Assembly: GCA_036925085.1 (NCBI GenBank)
Contig: JAUPFP010000040.1
Location: forward strand, 1,259,884-1,323,883
DNA length: 64,000 nt
DNA from: Brachycybe producta
Taxonomy: Eukaryota; Arthropoda; Diplopoda; Playtdesmida; Andrognathidae
Reading direction: 5' to 3'
Made by a program: the position numbers and the translations under genes. Below the pieces are notes generated by a model. That model was not told the origin of the DNA. It ran no database searches and saw nothing but the letters and a program-made list of their open reading frames with translations. Below, one piece after another: positions 20,246 through 64,000 of this stretch; the first letter of the stretch is position 1, and every line of letters begins with the position of its first letter.

Positions 20246-20797
20246 CCTCCACAACACAGAAGAAGAAGAAAATCTCTAAAAACTTAAAACTGATTGCGAG
20301 ACGACCATTTGATACGATTCAATAATTATCACTCCCTCCCACTTTTCATTTGTTTCTTCTATATACGACTTTACACACCCACATTACGAACGTAAACCTT
20401 TAACACATGTAACTCAAAAATTCAAATTCAACTACGTAACAAATCGCTTTAGCTCAAACACAAAAACATAACTTGAGAGTTGTTGCAACAACCTCGAAGT
20501 GATCGAAACCTTAGGGCCGAATTTGGCAAAGAACCTTTTTCAACGAGACCTCAAGAGACCCAACAACTTCAACCCTCTAGAGAAAAAGGTTCCAGCTAAA
20601 AAAACATTATCAAGAATAAAACTTAATTCTAACTTAATACTTCAAATCAAAATATTCAAATCTCAAGTAACTATAACACGATAACAACTTACTCGAGTAA
20701 AAATATCTGATTGCAAAATTAAAATAATCTTGAAAGTAACAATGTAACTCTAAAATAACCTTGAAAGTAACTTTGTAACTAAACTAACTTTGAAAAA

Positions 20798-21479
20798 GTA
20801 ACTATGTTACTAAAGTAACTTTGAAAAAGTAACTATGTTACTAAAGTAACTTTGAAAAAGTAACTATGTTACTAAAGTAACTTTGAAAAAGTAACTATGT
20901 AACAAAAGAAACTTCGAAAAAGTAACTATGTAACAAAAGAAACTTCGAAAAAGTAACTATGTAACAAAAGTAACTTCGAAAAAGTAACTATGTAACAAAA
21001 GTAACTTCGAAAAAGTAACTATGTAACAAAAGTAACTTCGAAAAAGTAACTATGTAACAAAAGTAACTTCGAAAAAGTAACTATGTAACAAAAGTAACTT
21101 CGAAAAAGTAACTATGTAACAAAAGTAACTTCGAAAAAGTAACTATGTAACAAAAGTAACTTCGAAAAAGTAACTATGTTACTAAAGTAACTTTGAAAAA
21201 GTAACTATGTTACTAAAGTAACTTTGAAAAAGTAACTATGTAACAAAAGAAACTTTGAAAAAGTAACTATGTAACAAAAGAAACTTCGAAAAAGTAACTA
21301 TGTAACAAAAGAAACTTCGAAAAAGTAACTATGTAACAAAAGTAACTTCGAAAAAGTAACTATGTAACAAAAGTAACTTCGAAAAAGTAACTATGTAACA
21401 AAAGTAACTTCGAAAAAGTAACTATGTAACAAAAGTAACTTCGAAAAAGTAACTATGTTACTAAAGTAACCGTGTATCC
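20798..21479 (+). repeat. 31-bp minisatellite, 22 units in exact register
   Basis: The start gtaactatg recurs at 20798, 20829, 20860 and every 31 bases to 21449 with no length change. Three unit types differ by a few bases: ttactaaagtaactttg, taacaaaagaaacttcg and taacaaaagtaacttcg. Their order is type 1 x3, type 2 x2, type 3 x7, then type 1 x2, type 2 x3 (the first keeps tttg), type 3 x4, and a final type 1. The block order therefore occurs twice. There are no unique spacers, so it is not a CRISPR array. Confidence 0.95.
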
Positions 21480-22717: not shown

Positions 22718-46686
<23,969 letters not shown>

Positions 46687-48336: not shown

Positions 48337-48543
48337 TTAACTAATGGCACAATCGATCTCTCCAGATTTCGGAACGCAGTCGAGAAGACAAGCTGCGGCT
48401 CTAATCTGATACGTCATACTTCCGTAACATCCGCTCGGAGCGCTGTCATAAAAGTGCTGACAGATTCCGCAGGCAGCGTTACAAGAACCGCGAGGTCCCA
48501 CCAAAGGAACGCAACACAGCGTTGCGTCTCCTTTTATATTACG
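48337..48543 (-). CDS. PHKA: PHKA last exon with CaaX box
   Basis: 68 residues and stop. After a Cys-rich insert (eight cysteines in the first 30 or so residues, e.g. [20 protein letters not shown]) come the conserved [14 protein letters not shown] block and the terminus EIDCAIS. CAIS fits a CaaX prenylation box. Mammalian alpha subunits end in a CaaX-type sequence and are known to be farnesylated. Confidence 0.9.
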
Positions 48544-51500
48544 CTTTAAAAGAAAGATAATAAGATACAAAAAAAAATCATGATTAATGATTGAAACAAT
48601 AGGTTTTTAATTACTAAATCAACTAATAGATGAGGCTAGGTGTCTGAAAGTGGCCACGCCCATAATGTTGTACAGAAAAACAAACATTTCAAGGCGCGAA
48701 TCTACCATAATAAGTATGTAGCTTCGTAAAAGCAACTTTTAAACGAAATCGAGAGTGTTTTCGAAACTTGACAAATAAATGAATTGTGTGGTTACTTTTT
48801 TTTGACGACCTGTTCTGAAATAACTGTTTGAAAACAATTTTAAAATGCCGATTTTTCGAATTCGAATGTTATCGGCGTCTTAAAACTGTCATAAGCAAAT
48901 TATCTCCGTACAGATTGTCATTAAAAAGCAACCACCTGGTTAATTTATTCATTTATTTTCGAAAACACTTTGAATTTTATCTAAAAGACCTTTTTAAGTA
49001 GCTCCATACTTGCATTGGTCGATGTGCGTGGTCACGCTCTGACACGTTGTGATGGTAATGCCATCCTAGGACCAAAATTTATAACTAAAAACTTCCGGTC
49101 TAACCTTAAATCTAAAAAGAAAACGACTAATTTTCAAACCTGATCCTCTAAAAAGATCTCGTTAGCTTGATGAACGATGTCTTCAACAGCTATGACGCTT
49201 CCAGTATGTTTGACGACGTCGTATTCGATCAGGAGAGTCAGGACCATGATAGCTTCGACGACCAGCTGTCGGTATTCCGGTTGTGGAATCGTATTCAACA
49301 CGGTTTCCATCTGTAAAGCGAACTTGAGTTCACCAGGAGTCATCTGTATAAAAACAATAAAAGACAAAGTTGCCATTAAAGGTTTAGATTATTTTAAGTG
49401 AAAAAACGGTTATTCTTTCGATTAGGAGCTACTGTCTCCAAGATAAGACTGTGAAATTGTTACGAATCATACGAATATACGCATACTCATACGATTCTCG
49501 TATGAATCCATCTTGCATAACGACGAAGGTTGGCATGAAGGCTAGCAATGCTTCTAGTTAATGTGTTTAGAGTATGAAAATCTAGTCTCTGGCACGAAGT
49601 ACCAGCACACTCGGTATTTTAAAAAGCTACATCGCAAAATTACTTCGAAAAATCTCCACAAAAAGCGCTAGCATCGTTTTTCTATTCACAACATAGATCC
49701 AATGTTAAAGAAAAAACGTTAATTTTTAAAATCCACAGTCGAGGTGACAATATGTTTTATTTTTCATATTTAAAGTTGTCCAATTTTGATGGTTCAAAGT
49801 GCAAAGTGCATCTTAAATATATGTTTATCTAGTGATAGAATGACAAAAAATTGGAAAGTGTGCGTCTATTTTTAAAAAAATATTTCAAAATCGCGAATTT
49901 TTAATTCTATGTTAAACTCCATTGACTCCAAAAAACACAACCATAAATGTTCATAAAAATACCTAAAACAATTTTTAAAAAATCTATAAAGTAAACTACA
50001 TTGAAGCAAACAGAATGCTGCACGTGCTGATTTTTTTGTTTTTTAAATTATTTTTACGTATTTTTATGAGCATTTTATTGGATTTTTTTTTGCTTACGAG
50101 CGTGTACTCAATGGAGTTTAAAATAGCGATTGCGATTTTGAAATAGTTTTTAAAATAGAAGCACACTTTCCAATTTTTTTGACGATCTATCACTAGATGA
50201 ACATATATTTAAAATGTATATTGCACTTTGAACCATCAAAATTGGACAACTTTAAATATGAAAAAATAAACATAATGCCGCCTCGAACGTGTATTTTAAA
50301 AATTAACATTTTTTCTTTAACATTGGGTCTATGTGTTCAATAGAAAAATGATGCTTAGCGCTCTTTGCGGAGATATTCCAAAGTAATTTTGCGATGTAGC
50401 CTTTTAATATGATCTCCTAATAGCAAGCCTCCACCTCCAACACTGGTTGTCGCTCGTACAACACAAGTACAAACTTCTAGTTAGAACTTGTTATTGCCAT
50501 ATGTTTACGGCCGTTCTTTCATGATAGCTTTCCTCCTAAATTTGTAATTCAAACCATGCACCGATAAGAGAGAGGCTCTAATAGCTAGCCTCCACCTCTA
50601 ACATGCGAGATAGGTACATTCGTACAAGATGAGACGGGGAAAGATAAAAGCTTACAAACAGAGATACAAACTTCCGAGTCGCTCGAAAAAGTAACAAACT
50701 TTCAAATTCTTGTCAAAATTTCTTTTCAAATAAAGAATAACCAAAAAATCCCTATCAAATCAAATACAAAAATGGACCTCTTGTGTCAACGTATGCGGTA
50801 TAATCTTTCCAGCAATCTGGAGTCCGTAAGACTGCAAAAAATAAAACATACTTTAAAATTAAGAAATTCCCTCGTAATAACACCACCTTAACAAACAAAC
50901 AAATCAATGGTTTCACACCTTTTCCAAAAGACGCCATACTTTGGGATAGAATCCCAGTGGAACTCTGTTTAATGCTCCATCAAGTTTACGCCGTCGTAAC
51001 CAGTGACCTTGTTTTGCTATCTCTTGGTTCGTTTCGTTTACAAAACCCTCCTTCGACATTGTTGCTCCGAAGCTAAATTGACTTTTCTGTTAAAAAAGGT
51101 GATTTAAAGTCTGTTAGAAACTAGAATAGTCGAATGAACAAGAGCGCGATTTTTACAAATAACATCTTTACAGTAATCATTTTTACGCCAATTTGAAAGT
51201 TACGGCTATCAATTTCAAATTTAAAAAAAATATACCACATTTAAGAACTTTGTGAAAAGTGCCATAGTGCCTAAGAGCAACCGCGATTCGCAACAGAGAC
51301 TGCAGTCTTTCGCGACCTGGCAGGTCGTTGTTGTGCGACTCGCAATTGCAGTCGGGGGTCAACTTGCCAGTTGTTCAAACCGGTTTTTGTGTTTTGGCAA
51401 ATATTTATATTGAGTGTTATTTAAAAAAAAAACTCAGCACAAAGAACCTTCTACCACCATGCAGTCATAGTGGTAGAAGGCAGTCATTATTTCATATATT

Positions 51501-54500
51501 ATTATTTCATTTATTTGTATCTTCTCAATGAATAACATAGGATTCTTATATGAAGGATTCGAGATTCGGGAGATTCGAGAACCTTTTAGGATTCGTATTC
51601 GAGAAAATTTAGGATTCGTCCCACCTCTACAATAAAACAACAAGTACAAACCAATAACGTCATAAGGCACACATACATTCATTTTGTGTAATTTTCAAGA
51701 AAAATATCATGCAAATGCGAAGAATAAGACAAGTTTGTTAAACAAAGAACCAACAGAATTTTCACTTATACAAATCTAAAAAAAATTAATAAAAAAGGGG
51801 TGAAATTGTAGTTATTTTGGTTCAGAGTTTGAAAAAAAAAACTGCTTGAGATAACTTAGAAATATTTTCAGTATTATTCAATATGTTTAACTAGGAATGA
51901 GCCATTCGAATCCTCGAATCCCGTGAATCTTGAAAAATATTCGAGATTCGAAAACTCAAATCTTCGTGCTTTTTTCGTCTTTCGAATACTAACCTTAAAA
52001 AACTGTTAAAAACTTTGGTAAAATCAGTTTTAACTCCATTGACGTCCAATAGAAGCTTTCACTAACCAAAAAACCGACGATTGTTTGCAATTTCGGTTGT
52101 ACCCAGATCACCAATGGATCACCTTGTGGCGACCCTGAGTGCCACACTCGGTTTTTTATTATTAATAATTTAATATTTAATATTATTTCATTTATTTGTA
52201 TCTTCTTAATGAATAATATAGGATTCTTATGGTAAGGATTCGAGAGATTCGGAAGATTCGAATGATTCGAGAACTTTTTAGGATTCGGATTCGAGAAAAT
52301 TTAGGATTCGGATTCGTCCCACCTCTAGTTTTAACTATTGGAATATGCTGATTGATGTACAGCACACGTTACAAAAAAACCACCAAAAGCTAAAGGAAAT
52401 ACCATGGAAACAACATACATGGAACAAATACAAATTCACATAAGAGAGACACACCTTTGTCTGTGGAACTGTCTTTTTCTGCATCCGTTAATACACAAAA
52501 AAAAACATACAAAACAAATGAATAAAAAGTTAGAAACAGAAGAAAGGGAAACACAAAACATAAAAACACTGATTAGTTGAGCTGCAAACAAATTATTCAT
52601 TAAAAAAGTACAACACGTCGTTCGAACCAACAGAAAAGACACTGAGATCGCATAATAGCCAAATACCTTACTGACTTTGCTCGATTTACAACTGACGACA
52701 GAAAGTGTTCCACTTCGAGCTGTTAATCGAAAAAAAAAATTTAAAAGATTAGTTCGGGTAAAAACCAACATCCGAGATAAAAGTTTGGCTATTCTTTCTA
52801 TTAGCAGCCGCTTAGCCTCTATATACATAGCTGTTCGCTATGCTTTGTAATACAAGAGTCAATTAGAATTCGGTTAAGTACGCACCACTACGAACTCCGA
52901 ACTCTTTGCCGCTCAAAAGATGGTGCAAAAGATTCTTCATCTCGAAAGGACTTAGATTTAAGAGATGATCGGATGCGACACCGCCTGAAATGAGAAAATA
53001 TTTTGATAAGTTGCTCCCCCTTCCCTTTTTTTTTTTTTTTGTACGTAAGCAACATTTACCGAGACACTGCAGCGAATGAGCAAGTTCGGAAGCCATTACT
53101 TGAATGATTAATCCGACTCGAAGGCGAAGCATCTCTTCGAACAGATGCGGTTCGGTTCGAATGAACATTGCTAAATAAACGATCAGTTCCTAAGAAATGT
53201 GAAGAAAAAACCCAATCAATTCATTGAAATCTTTTCATTTCAATTTCAATGATTAAAGCTATTTAAAGGCGTTCATAGATGAGCGATTTTTAGTTGATCG
53301 AGTTGGTTTGTAACAAGTGGTCGAAAACAACGACCGATAGCTTTTTTTTAGGACCACTTGAATGACTGGCCATCGACTCGATTAGTCAGTTTGGGTGACC
53401 TGTCAACTACTTTTTTGCAATTCAACTCAACTACTAAAAGTTGCTAGTCTGTGAACGCAGATTATTTGTATGAGATTCATACTCTTCATTAAACTTCAAA
53501 AACATTTCGAGCACATCACATACTTGCGTGAGCATAGCAGTGCTCTCGTCATCGCCGTAAGCGGCATGAATCAGAGAACGCAATTCAGTGACGGGAAGAG
53601 GACGCGTGATCGTCTTTTCGTTGTACGGAGGCAATCCGACAGTAATCTGTTTCTGTCTTACAAGAAGGTCCGTTACGGCCTTTGTTTCCGAACAAACAAA
53701 AAAAAAGCATTTCATCAACAAAATAAAAATTATATTTTAGTGGTCCATACTTTGGCTAAGTCGGCCACTTTCTTTCCCAAAATTCCCGCAATGTGTCGTA
53801 CAAGAGCCCAGTTCTTCTGTTGGCACGCTTTATCATAAAGGGTCTTCAAAAGATCCTTTACTGTAACTTTTGTCGAACCAGTTCCCATTCCAGTGTTCCA
53901 TTCCAACCCACTTTAACCATAGCAACAATGTAATATGTTAATTTGAGACACAGATTCAACGATAGACGATTAATGTTACAACAAACCGGCTGACGACAAA
54001 GTACTGCAGAATATCTCCATGTTCTTCGAGGCTGTCCGAGTCTCGCAAAATCGTCAAGAGTTCTTCGATGTCCACGTTTGCGTATTGAGCACTTTGTATT
54101 CTGAAAAATTTTCATTGAAGATTGAATCGTTTATGTGGTTGAATACGAAACGCCTCTCAAGCTCTAACTTATTCTGTCTTTATATAGAAAATCAAGAGAA
54201 ACGTGAAAGTGTTTTAGAAACTAGAAGGGTAGCTCAATCACTTAAGGACATCATCATGTTGATATCTTTCAAAGTTAGCTTTTTACTAGAGTTCAAAAAA
54301 GTGACCCAACTTTAAGTAGACGATGTTTTTTTTAATATTTATCTATAAAAAGTTTATTTTGAAAGATATCAACATGAAAACAGCCTCAAGTGATTGAGCT
54401 ACCATTCTAGTTTCTAAAACACTTTCCAGTTTCTCTGAAGATTTTACAAGTTTAAACTCTACTCGAACTCCTAATTATTCTGTGTTTCAAAGTGTGAAAT

Positions 54501-57500
54501 CAAAAAATACATCTTCACGTTGATATCTTTCAAAATAAACCTTTTATAAACAAAAATTTTAAAAAACAAACATCGTCTGCTTAAAAAAAATGGGTCCCTT
54601 TTAAACTGACGTAACAAAAAAAAAAAGCTCATTTTGAAAGATATTAACGTAAATATAGCCGTAAGTGGTTGAGCTACCCTTCTAGTTTATAAAACACTTT
54701 CCATTTTATCTTAATTTTACTCCCGAAAGACTGCTTGTAGTTTAAAACCGACTTAATTGTTTTTGTCGTATTTCTGCACCATAAAAGCTAAACGATTCCC
54801 ATATATTAAGGCATTAAAAATTGCTGAGAATGACCTTAGTTGACCTCTTGGAACCCAATCGTCATCCGTTCCATCTCCTGCCTCCGGTGATGGCGATCGT
54901 GTTCTAACCTCAGGAGGTGATGTGTAGCCGTAGCCACCTGGAGGAGAAAGAACATCAGGAATCGCAGCTAAATTCGAGCTGATACGTCTCGAATGTCCAA
55001 TGTGCTTAGAAAGCTCTGGAAAAACAACACCAAAAGCAAAGAAAAGCGTTCAGAAGTCAACTAAATAAAAGAAAAAATGGCAATCAAATAAAACCTTCAT
55101 CGTTCAGAAGAATCGTTCGGCTTCTCTTGATCATTCCGGCTACGGACATTTTACGTCTCATCTTTGGCTGGTTTTTCTGACGAGCGCTCCATTCCGAAAG
55201 ACCACGGCTTCCGAGGCGCATTCGTGAATGAGATGAAAGCGACTTATTCAGTTCCTTTTCTAAGTATTCCTGAACGTGAGTGTGTAAAGCTAAATGAGAG
55301 AAGAAGTTTCGTTGTAAAATAGACCACATACAGTAAGTATATATATCGAAGGCTCTTAACTCACTGTCGGGACAACCGTCTTCTTGGTTTCCAAGAAAAC
55401 TCAAGTTTGTGATACAAGATGTGTTCAGAAAATCGTTCAATCTTCCTAAAGCAACTCTAAGTCGACGAGAAAACAAATTAAATTACGGCTTACAGCTTTT
55501 TTGTAGATTATATTTGTTTTAAGAGCATAGAAACACTCCAGCAAGTGAAATTTGATGTGCCCATAAAAACACGGACTCGATTCCAGCCACCTTAAGGCAC
55601 TGATAAACCAAAATTAGATGTTCCCAAACTGTTCAAGAGCAGCTTACTAGCATAACGTCAACACACAAAAAAAAAACAAGCGTGTTCGCGATCACATGGC
55701 GAACAGCTCTCGAGATAGTTTGTTAGTTCGTCAAGAGTTCGCGTTTTATTAAAGACGTCATCAAACGATGGCGATGTAATAACTGTAATAATTATCAACT
55801 GGCGCGACAAGCTCGCTCACGTCTAAACCGGGTTTTCTTTTAGGGCAGATGTTCGAGAATGAACCCTTTTATGTACAGCCTCAAGAACAAACTCTGTACC
55901 AGTTCGCGAGTCCTCGTCTCAAACGGGTTCGATTTCTGTTCACGAACAGGTCCTGGACGGTTTGCGAGCTTGGTTTATCCGCGCCTTTAAGTTGATTTTT
56001 TTTAAAGACAATTCAGGTTGCAATTGCTTCTTGAATTATGTGTCTTTTGATTGCAATATTCAAAGGTTTTTTTTTTATTTTATACAATTTTAAATTATGC
56101 TAATTTGCTCGACCCATGTTAAAGGCTATTTATTGACCTCAAAAAGCTCCATTTTGCTAACTACCTTTAAGAAAAATTGCGTGTACCGGGTATTCCTTAA
56201 AATGCTTTTTGCAGAGCTGTAATTAGCTAATTTTGCACCCGAGACAAAGAATAAAACTGGCGCACCCTTTGTATTAGCACTCTAGTTATTTTCTACAACT
56301 ATTTCTGCACCCCTGAACATCGCATCCAAAACAAAAAACTCGCGCCACCTTAGGATATCATCCCGGCTCGGACTGAGCCGCAGAAAAATGACGAAATTCC
56401 CAGTGCACCTCCTCAAAAAAAAATCTAAACCATACTTAAAAAAAACTGGCGCCTCTTTATTATTATCGCTTGTTACTTTGTGCCCCTATTTCAGCGCCCT
56501 GAGCTTTGCGCCTAAGGCTCACTCGCCTCGCCCTAGTTATGGCGCTGGTTCTTCAGAGAATACAATAATTTCACGACGTTTCAAATCGCCGTTCAATTGC
56601 TAGTTATTTAAGCAACTTTGGAAGTGCAAAATTGACTGCAACTCATGGCGCAAGAAATGCTGGAGTGCTTCTAAGTTCACAGTGGAAGGCGACGAACCGA
56701 GTGCCACCGATGTAACCGCTCTTAAGCTTCTTCATCGTAGATATTACGGCCGTCGGAATCTTACCCTCATCTGTGAAAGGCAACAAACAAAATAAAATGT
56801 AATGGTATTTAAAACACATTCAATTTCAGCACGAGAAAATAATATTTTCATGAATAACTGAGTTAGTCGCGTGTTACTTTGTGGCGAAATGCGATTGGTA
56901 GTTAAAGTTAAATTGAAAAGCAGTGACTGCAAACTATGCAAATAAACGGAAACGATGAAAATAGTTTTGCGCTTTAATAAATTATTTAAGAGTATTTTCA
57001 TGTTTGATTTGTTTAAAAAAAATAACCTTTTCAAATTAGAAACTTCCCTTCAAGTTGGGTCTTTGAAAAAAATCTTAATAAATAAATAAATAATAGAAAT
57101 TACCCTTCTAATTTCTAAAAAAAAACCAACAGGGTCGGGATAAAAAGTTGAACGAATGAACGGATGAACATTGGGGGTAACTCTAAAACCCGACACAGAA
57201 TGAATGCATATGAAATTGAATGAACACTATATTACTGTGGATGAACAGCAATTTTAAAAAGATGAACAGAGAGAAATAAAAGGATGAACAAAGATAAATA
57301 AAAAGATTAACATACTTTAGAAGGATGAACATAGTTTTAAGGGGGATGAACATGGTTTCAAGGGGGATGAACATGGTTTCAAGGGGGATGAACATGGTTT
57401 TAAGGGGGGATGAACATGGTTTTAAGGGGGGATGAACATGGTTTTAAGGGGGATGAACATACTTTTAAGGGGGATGAACATGGTTTTATGGGAGATCAAC

Positions 57501-60500
57501 CATTTTCATCACCATAAAACCATGTTCATCCCAATAAAACCATGTTCATCCACCTTGAAACCATGTTCATTCTCCTTAAAACCATGTTCATTTAAAGTTT
57601 GTGTTCAACAATATTAATATAGTGTTCATCCTTTTATCCCTCTATGTCCATCATTTTAAAATTTGTGTTCATCCAATTCTATGTGCTTCCTGTGTCGGGT
57701 TTTAGAGTTACGTTCATCCGTTCAACTTTAAAAAGATGAACGGATGAACGTAATCCTGACCCTGATTATTTCGAAAAATCTCCTCAAGGACCACTATAGC
57801 ATAGTTTTTTTATATTGACGTGATTTTGACATTTTTAATTGCCCTTCTATAGAGGCAGTGAGTGGTAATTAAGGAAAAAAGGAGGGTTTCCCCCCCCTCC
57901 CCCCCCCCCCCACACACACACACATTTCCTTTTTTAACTCTTTATTTTTTAGTGGCAGTAAATTACTTTTCTCTTAATTTTCAAATTTCAGGTATTAATT
58001 TACGTTAAATTAAACATAAAACTCCCTGTTAATGCTAAGGTAATATAAAGTAAATCACAGTGAAGCCAACACATCGGTGCACGTACTGATTTTTTTCTGT
58101 TTTTTCTAAACCTTGTTTTCGCCAAATTTATGAATATTTTAATGGATGTGTTTTTCTTACTCAACATAAGAGTTTAACATAAGAGTTTAAAATTCCCGAT
58201 TTTGAAATATTTTTTTTAAAAATAGTAGTACGCTTTCAAATTTAATGAAAAGCTATCACTGGGTGAACATATATATAAGACGCATATTGCACTTTGAACC
58301 ATCAAAATTGGACAACTGTAAAAAAAAATTTGAATCAAAAACCGAGACTTCCATTTTAAAAATTAATTTTTTTTTCTTTAACATTGGGTCTATGGGTTCA
58401 ATATAAAAACGATACTAGCGAACATTGTGGAGATTATTCGACGTAATTTTGGGCTATAGCCCGTTAAGATGTTTTCAAAATACAGAATAGAGTTTTAGTG
58501 ACTTTTTTTAAGTAAAAAAAAAAAGTCAATTCAAAAACAATTTCACTCTGAACTCTTTGTTTAGAGCTGTGGACAACATCCTAAACAAGAGGCTGATTGA
58601 AACCATTATCCAAACACATTGGTGCTAATGTGTTTCAAAGGCCCATGAACCTTTCAATTGTGAACCTATTGGGCTATTACGTGTTGGAAAACCCTGGAGT
58701 TAAAACATAACACAATTAGAAATGCGTTGGTGATTAGTGCGAGAATAGACACAAACTGCCATAAAAGTACGAGCACAAAAAAGCAAATGTGCAAATGAGT
58801 GTTTCTCAGGGCCGACAAAGAAAAAAATAGCTTAAGACTATAGCACACACTTGGATACAAAGTCGCGCGACTCTTAGTATCTGACCTTGTCTAGTGGATG
58901 ACTGTCGAAGTACAGTCGCTAGACTGTCTAGAGACAATGTTCCGCAGTCTAGAGACAACATTCCCGTGTCTTTCGCATCCCACCCGAAATGGGCAACATT
59001 TTGACGTGTGGACGTGTTGCGAGATAAGGAACTCGTCACACCAGCCACTCAAACACACACCCTTTTTTCGCGATCAAATGAAGGTTATATACAGTAATAT
59101 GCAAATATAAAGTTTTGATTCATTGGCTCCTTCCTCACATTTGATTTTAAATTAACGTGTGGATGAGTGATGATGTGTAGATACAATGTCTCGCAACAAT
59201 ATCTCGACACTCCCATACATTGCCGCGTGACTTTGTGTCCAAGTGTGTACTAGGCTTTAGAAACTCAGAACCCTAGGTCAATAAAGGTTTCCAAACTGCC
59301 AGGTCTGTCTAACAAGTTAATTGAGGTCCTAATATAATTTTGTAAAAAACAAAAAAACAAATTTATCTCAAACTCAAAACTTGTTTGAAAATAGAAACGT
59401 AAAGAAATTCATTAAGGTGGTTTTGTAAGGTGTAAACGATCCCTTGAACTCTGGTTATTCTGTCCTTCAGCAGAAAAATTTACAAAAACGTAAAACTGTT
59501 TTAGAAACTAAAAAAATTAAGAAACGAGCTAGCTTTTTTTTTCGTGCTAAAAACAGTAAAAGTAAACTTTTTATTGCCTTTCGAAAGGTGGACATTGTTA
59601 AAGATAGTCGATAGATTTTCCTTTAGAAACTAGAAAATTCGTGAAACGTAGGGTCATAATCTTAATGATTGTTAAGTCAAAGATAATGCTAAACTCGTAA
59701 ATTTTCATATTATTAATGGAATTAGTAGATGCTAAACGAGGCGTCAACTCATGCTCGACACAAAGCTAGACATTTGCTTTGAATTTTATTAAAAAATACA
59801 AAAGATGATTTGTGCCACTTCTAAGTTTAAACACTTGTCTAGCTGAGCTAAGCCAGTGGCTAGGCCCTTAGCACCGTCATGGCAAATTTACAGGATTAAC
59901 AGGACTACATTTTATTATATTTATGTCTGTCCACCAGACGGTACATGTTGACGTTTGTGGCACCGAATTCCCACTGTAGAGACGGCATTCGGACGGTGTG
60001 CCACGTATGCAGTGAGACACGTAACAACCTGTCTATGTGCCCACGAGCTGGCAAACTGACCATTTTTCTACGTCATCGCTACTTTTTTTTTTACAAAAAC
60101 AATATAAAGCAATAATATTATATGCATCTTCCGTATCCATTCTCGAAATGTTGGAGGTATGCAACGACAAAACGTCTCTTTTTTCCTACATGCCGGCGGA
60201 TTGACCGTTCCGGCGAAAATTCTTGCCATGGACAACCGGCATAACTTTTTTTTCATGTTGATGTTTTTAAAAATGAACTTTTTATAGCGTTTTGAAAAAT
60301 TAAAAAGTTTACATTTCAAATTACTAAAATTAAAAAACGTAGCTCTTTTTTTGAATTTTCTAGTTTCTAAAGCACATCTCTCGACCACTTAAAACTCATT
60401 CATTTACTTTGCTTCGTGTTTTAAACAGCTTTGAACTGCGTTTTGAGTTTTAGCCATACATAAGGTGGAATTCAGTAGAGGCGATCGCGACCTTGCAACC

Positions 60501-61550
60501 GGACTTGATTCAATAGTTCAATATCAGAGCAGCTCTTTTGACGCGTACGCGACCGGCGTCTCTACTGTGCGACTGCAACCAGACTGCTGTCCGAACAGTC
60601 TGGTCGCAGTCGTGATGGCAGAAGATTCTTTGTGTCGAGTTGAAAAAACACACTTCAATATAAATATTTGCCAAAACACAAAAAATGATCTTAACAGACA
60701 AGTTGACCCACGACTGACAATCGCAAGTCGCACAACAACGACCTGCCAGGAATCAAGGTGGGGAACAAACGAGACAATGTTCACGAAAGGCGGCAGTCGC
60801 GGTCGCTTCTAGAAAATTCCACCTATAGGATGTTCTAAATTGGTTTCCCTTTGACTCCCTGCAGACCGGGCCTATTTTTGTTGTTGTTGCTAAGTGTGCC
60901 ATCATTTAAAACGTACCCAACATTAAACGGTCCATTACAAGCGTGACCGTTGGCCGGCCCAACATTCTCCAATTTTCTTTAAGAAACGCCAATGCGGTCT
61001 TAAAAATATATACGAGGAGCTCAACATCGGTGACCGTGTAAAAATTCGTCGCGTCCAGATTCTGCAAGCAACGAACGACACACAACATTTTTAGGCGGGG
61101 GAGATTGAGAAACCCGAACACTTAAAGATAAAAACAATAAGAAAACGTCGTACGTACACAACAACACTACAAATGAATAACAAAATCAAAATAACGAAAG
61201 CAGTTAGTTAGTAAATAAATAATAAAAAATATGTTCGAGCAAAGCGTTGCGTTCATGCAAAAGGACTTATCATTTGTGTATATACATCGAGCAGCTTCTA
61301 TTTGAAAGCATTGCGTTTTAGAAGCTTCAATTTAAATTGTGCGTTCGGCGGGCGGGATTTTTGTCCTGCAAGATTACGGTTACGTGTTTTAAACCTGGTG
61401 TTTACCTAACATGGCATGATTAATTGGTATGATGACCGTGGGACGTCCCAGCATGTGCCAACTCGACTTCAAGAACGATAATTCCGATTTAAAAACATCA
61501 ATGAGTAGTTCGGTATCGGAAGCAATGTAGAAGCGCTGCTTATCTACAAA
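48337..61550 (-). CDS. PHKA: phosphorylase b kinase regulatory subunit alpha, C-terminal 684 residues (5' part off right edge)
   Basis: Exons: 61550-61406 or 61061-60917 (alternatives), 56770-56698, 55456-55365, 55289-55095, 55015-54835, 54100-53987, 53910-53751, 53679-53524, 53189-53060, 52984-52886, 52719-52667, 52478-52455, 51086-50919, 50831-50778, 49343-49140, 48543-48337. With one alternative exon they sum to 2055 nt and all phases fit. Recognisable blocks include [114 protein letters not shown] and [18 protein letters not shown] is the large regulatory subunit of the (alpha-beta-gamma-delta)4 kinase that activates glycogen phosphorylase. Alpha is favoured over beta by the DSAPSG ending. 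The glucoamylase-like N-terminal half is beyond 64000. Confidence 0.95.
49618..50405. mobile_element. large foldback element, family K, copy 2 (PHKA intron)
   Basis: Begins gctacatcgcaaaattactt and ends aagtaattttgcgatgtagc. Arms of about 380 bp share agcgctagcatcg, caatgttaaagaaaaaacgt and ccaattttgatggttcaaag with copy 1. A pure intronic hairpin with no reading frame of note. Confidence 0.85.
51270..51486. mobile_element. MITE, family O, copy 2 (partial)
   Basis: Matches the reverse of 60600-60770: gacctggcaggtcgttgttg, caaatatttatattgagtgt and aagaaccttctaccacca. Its end is lost where a family H fragment starts. Confidence 0.6.
51487..51629. mobile_element. family H MITE fragment (right half)
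   Basis: Covers atttgtatcttctcaatgaa to aggattcgtcccacctcta. The left half is absent. Confidence 0.65.
51892..52327. mobile_element. hAT-like MITE, family H, copy 4
   Basis: Ends taggaatgagccattcgaat and ggattcgtcccacctcta. The flanks tgtttaac and gttttaac are similar, in line with an 8-bp target duplication. Confidence 0.8.
52455..52478 (-). CDS. PHKA: PHKA 24-nt microexon
   Basis: Encodes KKTVPQTK, phase 0 on both sides, between acceptor gatgcag and donor gtgtgt. Neighbouring exons (52719-52667 and 51086-50919) are also phase 0, so it can be skipped without a frame change. It lies in the Ser-rich, poorly conserved linker before [14 protein letters not shown]. The call rests on splice sites and phase only. 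Confidence 0.6.
53266..53461. mobile_element. 196-bp MITE in a short PHKA intron
   Basis: Inverted ends aaggcgttcatagatgagcg and gttgctagtctgtgaacgc, with tcgagttggt and actcgatt inner pairing. A related partial sequence is at 27890-28015, 24 nt upstream of BRSK exon 7. Confidence 0.7.
54215..54720. repeat. family I-related inverted repeats (PHKA intron)
   Basis: gaaactagaagggtagctca and its inverse tgagctacccttctagttt occur with two pairs of tttcaaaataaac / gtttattttgaaag arms. Similar units are at 47870-48045 and 34660-35160. Confidence 0.65.
54835..56770 (-). CDS. PHKA: PHKA exons after the alternative pair (56770-54835)
   Basis: The exon at 56770 reads [20 protein letters not shown] then IGGTR. 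The exon at 55456 reads [20 protein letters not shown]. The exons at 55289 and 55015 carry a basic Ser-rich linker ([20 protein letters not shown]) and a Pro/Ser stretch ([20 protein letters not shown]). RRKMSVAG resembles a basophilic-kinase phosphorylation site. This stretch is the variable region of the family, which is subject to phosphorylation in mammals. Confidence 0.85.
55591..55990. mobile_element. MITE, family G, copy 2 (unexpanded)
   Basis: Ends ttaaggcactgataaaccaa and ttggtttatccgcgccttta. Contains gttcgcgatcacatggcgaa, agttcgcgagtcctcg and ctgttcacgaacaggtcc. It is about 400 bp against about 980 bp for copy 1. Confidence 0.65.
57130..57764. mobile_element. MITE containing an inverted gatgaacatggttt minisatellite
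   Basis: Ends cagggtcgggataaaaag and taatcctgaccctg. Arms ggtaactctaaaacccgaca and gtcgggttttagagttacgt pair. Between 57310 and 57500, ggatgaacatggttttaagg recurs about eight times with a 23-24 base step. From 57510 to 57600 the inverse (aaaccatgttcatcc) recurs four times. Confidence 0.8.
58030..58462. mobile_element. family K element, one arm (copy 3)
   Basis: Matches the right half of copies 1 and 2 (cagtgaagccaacacat, gcactttgaaccatcaaaat, acattgggtctatgggttca). The left arm is missing. Confidence 0.7.
58832..59260. mobile_element. MITE with cacacttggatacaaagtcg ends
   Basis: The inverted ends are cacacttggatacaaagtcg and gtgactttgtgtccaagtgt. The inner gtctagagacaatgttcc/gacaatgttccgcag blocks repeat. 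Confidence 0.7.
60462..60829. mobile_element. MITE, family O, copy 3 (PHKA intron)
   Basis: Ends taaggtggaattcagtagag and tctagaaaattccacctata are inverted, with ggcgatcgcgacc/ggtcgcttct pairing inside. It lies 88 nt from alternative exon B. Confidence 0.75.
60917..61061 (-). CDS. PHKA: PHKA alternative exon B
   Basis: 145 nt, phase 0 in and phase 1 out, identical in length and phase to exon A. Acceptor cttgcag, donor gtacgt. Encodes [20 protein letters not shown] and [18 protein letters not shown]. It aligns with exon A without gaps, 23 of 48 residues identical. The invariant WxMLGRPTV core is kept and the last residues differ. Confidence 0.9.
61406..61550 (-). CDS. PHKA: PHKA alternative exon A
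   Basis: 145 nt, phase 0 in and phase 1 out. Acceptor ttaaag, donor gtaaac. Encodes 48 residues including [20 protein letters not shown] and [18 protein letters not shown], the family segment just before [17 protein letters not shown] second AG, six bases further in (tttgtag), exists but would change the phase. Confidence 0.9.
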
Positions 61551-61703
61551 CTTTAATCAGTCAAGTTTAGCGTCTTTTAAATATATGAAGTTGCCAATGC
61601 AAAATATGCAAATGAAAAAGAAAAACACTGGAAATTAAATCTTGTTTAGATTTGCCTAATTCCGATTCGATTAATCGGCGAATCAATTTTTTTGTTTCCA
61701 ATT

Positions 61704-62230
61704 ACGGTGGCTGAATAGGGTACTTATTATGTTTTCGTCCCCCTTGATGGAGCCCTTGCAGTGGCTAGCATTTCCTGTCCATAGGAGGTCTTTTCCCTCC
61801 AGCCACCGTTTTGAGAAAATTTCTATTTTTCATGGGAACGTTTTTTACGAAAAAAATTCAAAGTGTTTTGGAAACTAAAATAGTCGGTGACAATGTTAAA
61901 AGTTGTTTAATGGTGATATCTTTCAAAATAAACTTTTTATGACAAGTTTGAAAAAGAGCGAAAATAGTTTTTCAATGGAAAAATAAAAAAAAACGGATCA
62001 TTTTCAAACTGAACTATAAAATTGTTTATTTTTTAAGATATTGCCATGAAAAAACTTTTAGCATAACCTTTTACAATTCTAGTTTTGAAAACAATTTGAA
62101 TTTTTTCGTAATGTTGTTTCGAAAAAACGTTCGTTTGACGTCTTTACGTCCAAAACGTTTATAGAGCATAGCATTTAAACACTCCAGTGGCGCCATCCGG
62201 GAAGACAACAGCAAAATAAATATCTATTCG
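61704..62230. mobile_element. palindromic MITE, family I, copy 5
   Basis: Begins ggtggctgaatagggtactt. Carries cagtggctagcatttcctg and its partner agcatttaaacactccagtg, with gatatctttcaaaataaact and gtttattttttaagatattg in the middle. Confidence 0.7.
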
Positions 62231-62747
62231 TATCAATATTCATTGCACATTCTGTTACAATGTTTCTTTTTTTTAAATCGAGTCCCTTTAAGAAAGTTCG
62301 TAAACAAGGCAAATTAGTGGTCCAGATGGACTCTAAAAAGTGGACGTCATTTCTTTTAAAATTATTTTTAAAAAGCAAAATACTCCAGCGTTCCATCCAG
62401 TAATTTTATGATGAGAAACTTTAAATGTAACAATTCTTAAGTTGTAGATATATTTCTTAGATCATTCATTAATATAAATTACTAACTATATTTCATGCAA
62501 CATTATCATCAACAAAACAATACAAACTAAACTACTCCTTATAAGCGAAACTCAATGAGGAAGAAATTCAAAGTTTCGTTAATCAGCATTAGAGAAGCAA
62601 CTTCAAGAAATAAAAAAACTACAGAACATAAAATGAATAGATATTAAAAATATACAGCCTGTCCCAAAAATGTATACACACTTTTGGTTGTTAACAACTG
62701 CCATGTTTATTTTCTTAAATTTAATTTAATAATTAAGAGTAAATTAT

Positions 62748-63104
62748 TATTATTATATATATAATATCCCAGGTCTGTGTATGTATGTGTGTGTGGAGTA
62801 ACAAAAACCATTGAAGCACATCGGAATTTATATAAATTTGAATAAATGAACCGTTTTTTTTTTGTCTCAAGGTCAACTATGTGTTGAACTCTTCCTTTGG
62901 AAAGTGTAGAAGGGGGAGAGAGAGAAAAGTGGGAGGGGGGTGAGGGGAAAAGGTTGGAAAGTGTAGAAGGGAGAGAGAGAGAGAAAAGTGGGAGGGGGTG
63001 ACTGAAATTGAAATGAAAGGAGTAAAAAAAGGAAAAAACGACGCGCATGCGCACAATTGCCTGTGAATTTTGCTCCAGTCATTTATGACGGGTTACCCCA
63101 CTAG
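62748..63104 (+). mobile_element. non-autonomous Helitron, short form (copy d)
   Basis: Begins near tatataatatcccaggtctg and ends gtcatttatgacgggttacc then CCACTAG at 63104. The interior is the reverse of copies b and c, including gacgcgcatgcgcac. Confidence 0.85.
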
Positions 63105-63698
63105 TATTATATATATAATATCCCGGGCCTGTCCGTGTGTGTGTGTGTGTGTGTGGATGGGTGTCTTTCCTCTAACGCTGGACAAACACCTTTGTCAGAA
63201 TTTATATAAATTTGAATAAATGAACTGCTTTTTTCTTCTGTCAAGGTCAACTATCTGTTGCACCCTTCCCATCCAAGAACCCCATGATATTAAATTGGAA
63301 AGGAGAAAAGGTTTATAAAGTGTAGAGGGGGGGGGGGGAGAGAGAGAAACGTGGAGGGAGAAAAAAGGGGAGGGGTGACTGAAATTGAAATGAAAGGAGT
63401 AAAAAAAGGAACAAACGATGCGCATGCGCCACCAGAAAAAATGAAAAGCTCATTTTCTCTTTCAAACATAAAAAAGGGGAGGGGATAATAGTAGCAAAAT
63501 TAAACCACAGTTTATCACGGGCAATTGTGCCCAGCATTAGAATTTTTTTTGCTCCGCCCTTTTATGAACATCATCAATTTCTAATTGGTTTGTTACTTGG
63601 TCTGATGTCATTAAAGGGCGGAGGAAAAGAGATTCTAATGCTGGGCACAATTGCCTGTGAATTTTGCTCTCGTCATTTATGACGGGTTACCCCACTAG
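63105..63698 (+). mobile_element. non-autonomous Helitron, long form (copy e), head-to-tail with copy d
   Basis: Begins tattatatatataatatccc immediately after the CTAG of copy d and ends gacgggttaccccactag at 63698. Contains a family B MITE at 63517-63656 and the extra ttcattttctctttcaaa segment shared with copy a. Confidence 0.85.
63517..63656. mobile_element. GC box MITE, family B, copy 9 (inside a Helitron)
   Basis: Ends gggcaattgtgcccagcatt and aatgctgggcacaattgcct. Inverted gctccgcccttttatga boxes with attggtttg. Same position in the host Helitron as copy 4. Confidence 0.8.
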
Positions 63699-64000
63699 TG
63701 TTACAATAAAGATTAGATGTAACAGTATTGCATATTTTATATTTAAATGAGGCATTATCTGAAATGTTCAAAATGTCGCCCATTCTCCTTGCTGACATTA
63801 GTAAGAAACTGATCTGCAAACACCAATTAATGTATTTCTTTTAATTGCACAACAATTCTCTTTGATTTCTTACTAAAATTATGTAAATGAGAAGAAATTC
63901 AAAGAGAACTGTCGCACAATTACAAGAGATAAGTTAATTGATGTTTGCAATTCAGGGTTTTTTTTTTTTACCAATGTCAGCAATGTGAATTGACGACATT

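Follow-up and report, generated by a model that had tools for sequence, protein, structure and literature searches.

Among regulated enzymes phosphorylase kinase is a textbook case, and its alpha subunit has two roles, tethering the kinase and inhibiting it. The arthropod alpha-subunit gene (PHKA) described here carries two similar exons in tandem, and it raises the question of whether these are alternatives of which each mRNA takes exactly one and, if so, what the choice would do to the enzyme. In insects, tandem exons that exclude each other are a familiar kind. The window that we analysed is a stretch of 64,000 nucleotides (C40:1259884-1323883) from an assembly of 295.3 Mb in 442 contigs. 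Judged from its sequence, it is highly probable that the pair is a tandemly duplicated internal PHKA exon subject to mutually exclusive splicing, giving two alpha subunits in which D2-alpha would be tuned differently, and the animal can probably make two enzyme forms from one gene.

Both copies lie on the minus strand. Exon A, the upstream copy (61406..61550), is translated as FVDKQRFY...HAML plus one base and is bordered by the splice sites AAAG/TTT and TTAG/GTAAAC, while exon B, the downstream copy (60917..61061), is translated as NLDATNFY...RLML plus one base and is bordered by GCAG/AAT and TTGG/GTACGT. Each is 145 nt long, enters in phase 0 and leaves in phase 1, with AG before and GT after. 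The 344 nt intron that separates them (61062..61405, minus strand) contains TTACTAACTAAC and decoy-like acceptors. The preceding exon 10 ends in ...FAFTPQ/GT in phase 0, and the common downstream exon, exon 11 (56698..56770, minus strand, AT/GAGGGTAAGATTCC...), begins at 56770 with AT/GAG and completes the split codon of either copy, the last G of A or B plus AT coding for Asp. The two peptides align without gaps, with 23/48 residues identical and 25/48 different (BLASTP, 55.8 bits, E = 2e-18). Coordinates and translation therefore agree with the initial annotation, which had described two homologous exons of this length, spacing, phase and identity; its G/AT junction to 56770-56698 is borne out by the splice-site and junction reading, and the core FY..(S/T)D.ELL...FK..L.FLK..W.MLGRPTV that it had delimited is kept in B by the alignment. 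It had further located the effect of the swap in the last eight residues and the helix before them; the changes are spread over the whole segment and do not fall mainly in its last eight residues.

The reading frame bears directly on how the two copies can be used. In silico translation of exon 10-A-exon 11 and of exon 10-B-exon 11 gives an open frame in both cases; exon 10-A-B-exon 11 runs into a stop 13 codons past A, and exon 10 joined to exon 11 without A or B into a stop after eight codons. Since each copy is 145 nt long, which is not a multiple of three, and the phases are identical, the full protein results only from mRNAs that include one copy and not the other, so that exclusivity is enforced at the protein level by frame. 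The use of one exon only had been put down to the protein family having a single such segment; the premature stop that follows from A plus B or from neither is the better reason for exclusivity. Several features of a mutually exclusive cluster are found here, in that the exons are neighbouring and internal, of like length, of equal phase and homologous, and the test translation showed the inclusion of both or neither to be incompatible with a full protein. The mRNAs that contain both copies or skip both would terminate after a few dozen codons at most and would presumably undergo nonsense-mediated decay. Length, phase, strand, position, splice dinucleotides, frame and constraint all agree with the mutually exclusive pair in PHKA that had been proposed.

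The gene itself was traced by tblastn, with a Drosophila PHKA protein, approximate in its letters, as the probe; the match to this probe reaches 96% in one exon. The gene lies on the minus strand. Its start Met is at 72911 in region coordinates, 8.9 kb outside the window, and its stop at 48337, and exons A and B are flanked on both sides by PHKA exons, all on this strand and in order. The remaining 3' coding exons and introns extend over 48337..55456 (minus strand), as placed by tblastn, the ORF listing and the junctions, with the stop codon at 48337-48339. Probe residues ~685-780 gave no tblastn match at the PHKA locus, and the gene model is incomplete there. A GH15 (glucoamylase-like) N-terminal domain is present, with Pfam PF00723 scoring above its cut-off in three places within the 5' exons (C40:1330331-1331541). 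At the other end, the last ORF finishes with DCAIS followed by a stop, a CaaX-like C-terminal prenylation box; the CaaX end of human alpha is farnesylated, according to PMC10978961.

With respect to subunit identity, a Pfam search of the whole assembly returned five GH15 matches, the three in the PHKA gene and two on contig C5. The D2 segment on C5, found in two pieces within 40 kb, is 68% and 50% identical to human PHKB, against 53% and 50% to exon A. Since GH15 matches occur only at PHKA and on C5, and the C5 segment is nearer to PHKB, the assembly appears to contain one alpha gene and one beta gene. The joined D2 segment (132 residues, including the common flanks) reaches, in its A form, 138 bits with alpha and 70.7 with beta, and in its B form 115.1 bits with alpha and 68.9 with beta. 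Exon B by itself is nearly equidistant, with 24.8 bits to alpha (human muscle alpha, PHKA1, residues 525-570) and 23.9 bits to beta (PHKB 581-619), while exon A aligns with PHKA1 residues 524-571 at 44.1 bits.

The duplication seems confined to these two copies. Searching the whole assembly with A or B, by a method insensitive to distant copies, as it missed the beta-gene segment that tblastn on 40 kb finds, gave as sole matches the query itself and the other copy (E ~3e-9). A profile built from the two exons together with the human segments of alpha and beta recovered A (2e-30) and B (3e-28) in 90 kb, where no third copy was detected, the next best match having E = 1.3. When 25 PHKA exon peptides, a set that leaves out one further likely exon (e14), were compared with 90 kb, 23 matched once and A and B matched each other (E <=0.05). 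The 300-nt stretches flanking A showed no homology above shuffles to those flanking B (12% and 19% of 300 shuffles were equally good), as expected if the duplication is old. Relatives were also sought in the prokaryote collection genome_contigs (56 pattern matches) and in viral_contigs (70 pattern matches) and none was confirmed, as expected of prokaryotes and viruses. No Pfam family was found in exon A or B alone, and an Rfam search of the window gave no match.

Two copies of an exon need not both be functional, and one of them might be a relic of the tandem duplication, skipped or spliced as noise. The comparison of A with B is informative in this respect. The differing positions show a modest enrichment at the third codon position (27/48, against 20/48 at the first and 15/48 at the second; Fisher p = 0.03), and pS is 0.79, which means that synonymous sites are saturated, whereas pN is only 0.33. 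In a simulation of neutral decay that derives B from A, a stop-free sequence with at least 23/48 identity was recovered in 0/2000 runs at 1.0 and again at 1.5 proposals per site, in 3/2000 at 0.75, and in 8% and 27% of the runs at 0.5 and 0.3. A young, neutrally decaying copy would be compatible with the low-divergence end of this simulation, though the saturated synonymous sites argue against youth. Because the latter place the divergence at the high end of the simulation, where neutral decay fails, both exons look constrained. The splice sites of A and B are weaker than most of the gene, as a relic would allow, but both frames are open with no stop in either, the GT and AG sites are intact, pN is far under pS and B retains the conserved core; hence a non-functional copy is very improbable, and we favour two working exons.

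As to the age of the pair, exon A is somewhat closer to human PHKA1 (21/48 identical residues, against 17/48 for B), while exon B is closer to the Drosophila CG7766 segment in its approximate letters (25/48, against 20/48 for A). If these CG7766 letters are right, and bearing in mind that the differences are small, the duplication would be older than the split from flies, since B is nearer to the fly protein; flies should then have an A-type exon.

The position of the swap within the protein suggests what it may do. Residues 524-571 would fall within D2, given their closeness to Lys588 and Tyr593, whose equivalents are encoded by the common exon 11, 15 and 20 residues past the swap here and 17 and 22 in human. 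In the cryo-EM study PMC10978961, alpha Lys588 and Tyr593, the latter in D2-alpha, touch the kinase N-lobe, D2-alpha also touches D2-beta, and an ADP-induced movement of D2-beta is proposed to loosen the kinase via D2-alpha. The products of the proposed splicing would be two alpha subunits that are 25/48 residues apart in a segment N-terminal to the kinase-docking residues of D2-alpha. We infer that the swap affects kinase inhibition or the response to ADP and Ca2+: it would most likely tune how firmly D2-alpha keeps the kinase domain inactive, and an altered hold would give a Ca2+/ADP responsiveness that differs by tissue or stage. An AlphaFold2 prediction from the alignment of A and B is a weak model (mean pLDDT 71.4, pTM 0.40), consisting mainly of one helix over residues 4-29. 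A natural exon swap directly before the kinase-docking residues would offer a ready-made experiment on the way in which D2-alpha sets inhibition, and it would be a candidate means by which insects fit glycogen breakdown to the needs of tissues from one gene.

At the RNA level, the splice signals were scored with matrices derived from the PHKA gene only, which are small (15 acceptors and 13 donors, unplaced junctions being omitted). The acceptors of A and B score 1.9 and 3.5, each below 13/15 others of the gene, and the acceptors of e6 and e15 score lower still; the donor of A (3.4) lies below 13/13 and that of B (4.8) below 10/13. A smaller matrix (9 acceptors, 13 donors) places both acceptors below 8/9 and both donors below 12/13. 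Weak splice sites are usual for regulated exons, and which of these two weak exons enters the mRNA is probably decided by regulated recognition.

The A-B intron has signals of its own. Two acceptor-like AGs, with 61120 and 61166 as the first following base, score 8.3 and 3.9 against 3.5 for the B acceptor, and 7.4 and 4.2 against 4.6 under the smaller matrix. Both are downstream of TTACTAACTAAC (61203-61214, minus strand). Its TACTAAC (61213) occurs nowhere else on the transcript strand across 66041-48337, and the element resembles both a branch point and the site of a STAR protein (How/QKI). Together with the AGs it may be a decoy or serve a STAR protein, or it may have arisen by chance. The acceptor-like AGs, together with the early stops of the A plus B and skipped forms, could also mean that the pair works in part as a productivity switch, in which double-inclusion and skipped mRNAs are made as well, and unproductive splicing with subsequent decay turns the gene off. 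This is possible, if rather doubtful, as AGs scoring at least 6 occur at a background rate of ~1.1 per 344 nt in the gene region, which makes the decoy unremarkable, and a mere off-switch would need no two constrained homologous exons.

Among the mechanisms that could keep A and B apart in the mRNA, steric exclusion was rejected, the 344-nt intron seeming long enough to splice, and so was exclusion by mixed U2/U12 spliceosomes, given that the donors (GTAAAC and GTACGT) and AG acceptors are not of the minor type by eye. Competition between docking and selector sites through RNA base-pairing, as in insect Dscam, 14-3-3zeta, Mhc and MRP1, is described for several insect clusters in PMC6071210, and could in principle set the exclusion here; however, the best duplexes of the A-B intron reach -61.0 kcal/mol with tiles of the upstream intron and -61.0 kcal/mol with those of the downstream one, while shuffled controls (15 each) have means of -59.7 and -61.1 and minima of -65.9 and -73.9 kcal/mol. 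In this one sequence, neither flanking intron pairs with the A-B intron more strongly than shuffled controls do, and base-pairing as the cause of exclusion is unlikely. The region 56650-64000 contains 151 inverted-repeat pairs, the 25 longest being mostly local and of repeat type.

Alternative isoforms of this enzyme are not without precedent. PHKA1 and PHKA2 are the vertebrate muscle and liver alpha paralogues, and mammalian PHKB, which encodes the homologous beta subunit, has an alternative exon pair near its 3' end. Vertebrates thus obtain two alpha isoforms from two genes, whereas here one gene and an exon choice would suffice, if the pair works as proposed. We tentatively suggest, with less than even confidence, that A and B would form an old arthropod splicing switch on D2-alpha, which relays between the ADP-sensing beta core and the docked kinase domain. 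The two products would differ in resting inhibition or in ADP/Ca2+ sensitivity, for instance between flight muscle and fat body, and exon choice would achieve what the PHKA1/PHKA2 gene pair does in vertebrates. Regarding PHKB, the 40 kb around the PHKB-like gene of this genome contain a single match to the D2 segment, split into two pieces. The mammalian PHKB exon pair is absent from the portion of PMC4971515 that we could access, which concerns PHKB mRNA level.

The general arrangement agrees with that of insect Mhc, Dscam, 14-3-3zeta and MRP1, which likewise have homologous exons in tandem that agree in length and phase, one being used per mRNA (PMC6071210). Compared with these clusters, the PHKA pair has two members, a host gene that regulates glycogen metabolism and, in this one sequence, no docking-selector sign. 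The pair also fits the prediction criteria given in PMC3228551, namely length, conservation of splice sites and frame, and homology. The same paper names annotated mutually exclusive exons in the Drosophila phosphorylase kinase gamma gene (X chromosome), and thus in the same enzyme; those exons are dissimilar in length and sequence, unlike PHKA A and B, which are similar.

CG7766 is absent from the main text of PMC3228551 as far as this was available, and its exons are not treated in the available parts of PMC12452063, PMC7013401, PMC8864734 and PMC8022946. Likewise, for the terms tried, no PHKA entry was found in the main text of PMC3303723, PMC5740500, PMC9741552, PMC7954323, PMC3923563 and PMC6071210. 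Among the papers listed by the literature searches we found no report of alternative D2 exons in PHKA. The kind of exon pair is well known, and annotated isoforms in fly or other insects may already include this one.

The window and the assembly also show several features apart from the exon pair. In the intron after exon B (57220-57675), 21-nt tandem repeats occur in both orientations, GGATGAACATGGTTTTAAGGG and a complement-like partner, and form inverted repeats of ~60 nt that are 89-90% complementary. Tandem arrays with a 31-nt unit are found at 20764-21470 (~23 copies, 97% matches) and 44198-44573 (~12 copies, 96%). An ORF at 31289-31624 on the minus strand matches Pfam Pkinase with 61.6 bits, and ~5 kb downstream of it lies a second ORF (25597-25980, minus strand) that is rich in Ser/Pro and matches no Pfam family; the two resemble a BRSK/SAD-1 type kinase gene adjoining PHKA. 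On the plus strand, an ORF at 1296-1691 gives a weak reverse transcriptase match (RVT_1), its 24 bits falling short of the Pfam cut-off (29.6), and is probably a retroelement remnant. Finally, the telomere repeats point to an insect outside Diptera as the probable host: TTAGG telomeres mark arthropods but flies lack them, and a TTAGG 25-mer has 7853 matches in the assembly (558 + 7295, with overlaps inside arrays), compared with 4 when the sequence is reversed as a control.
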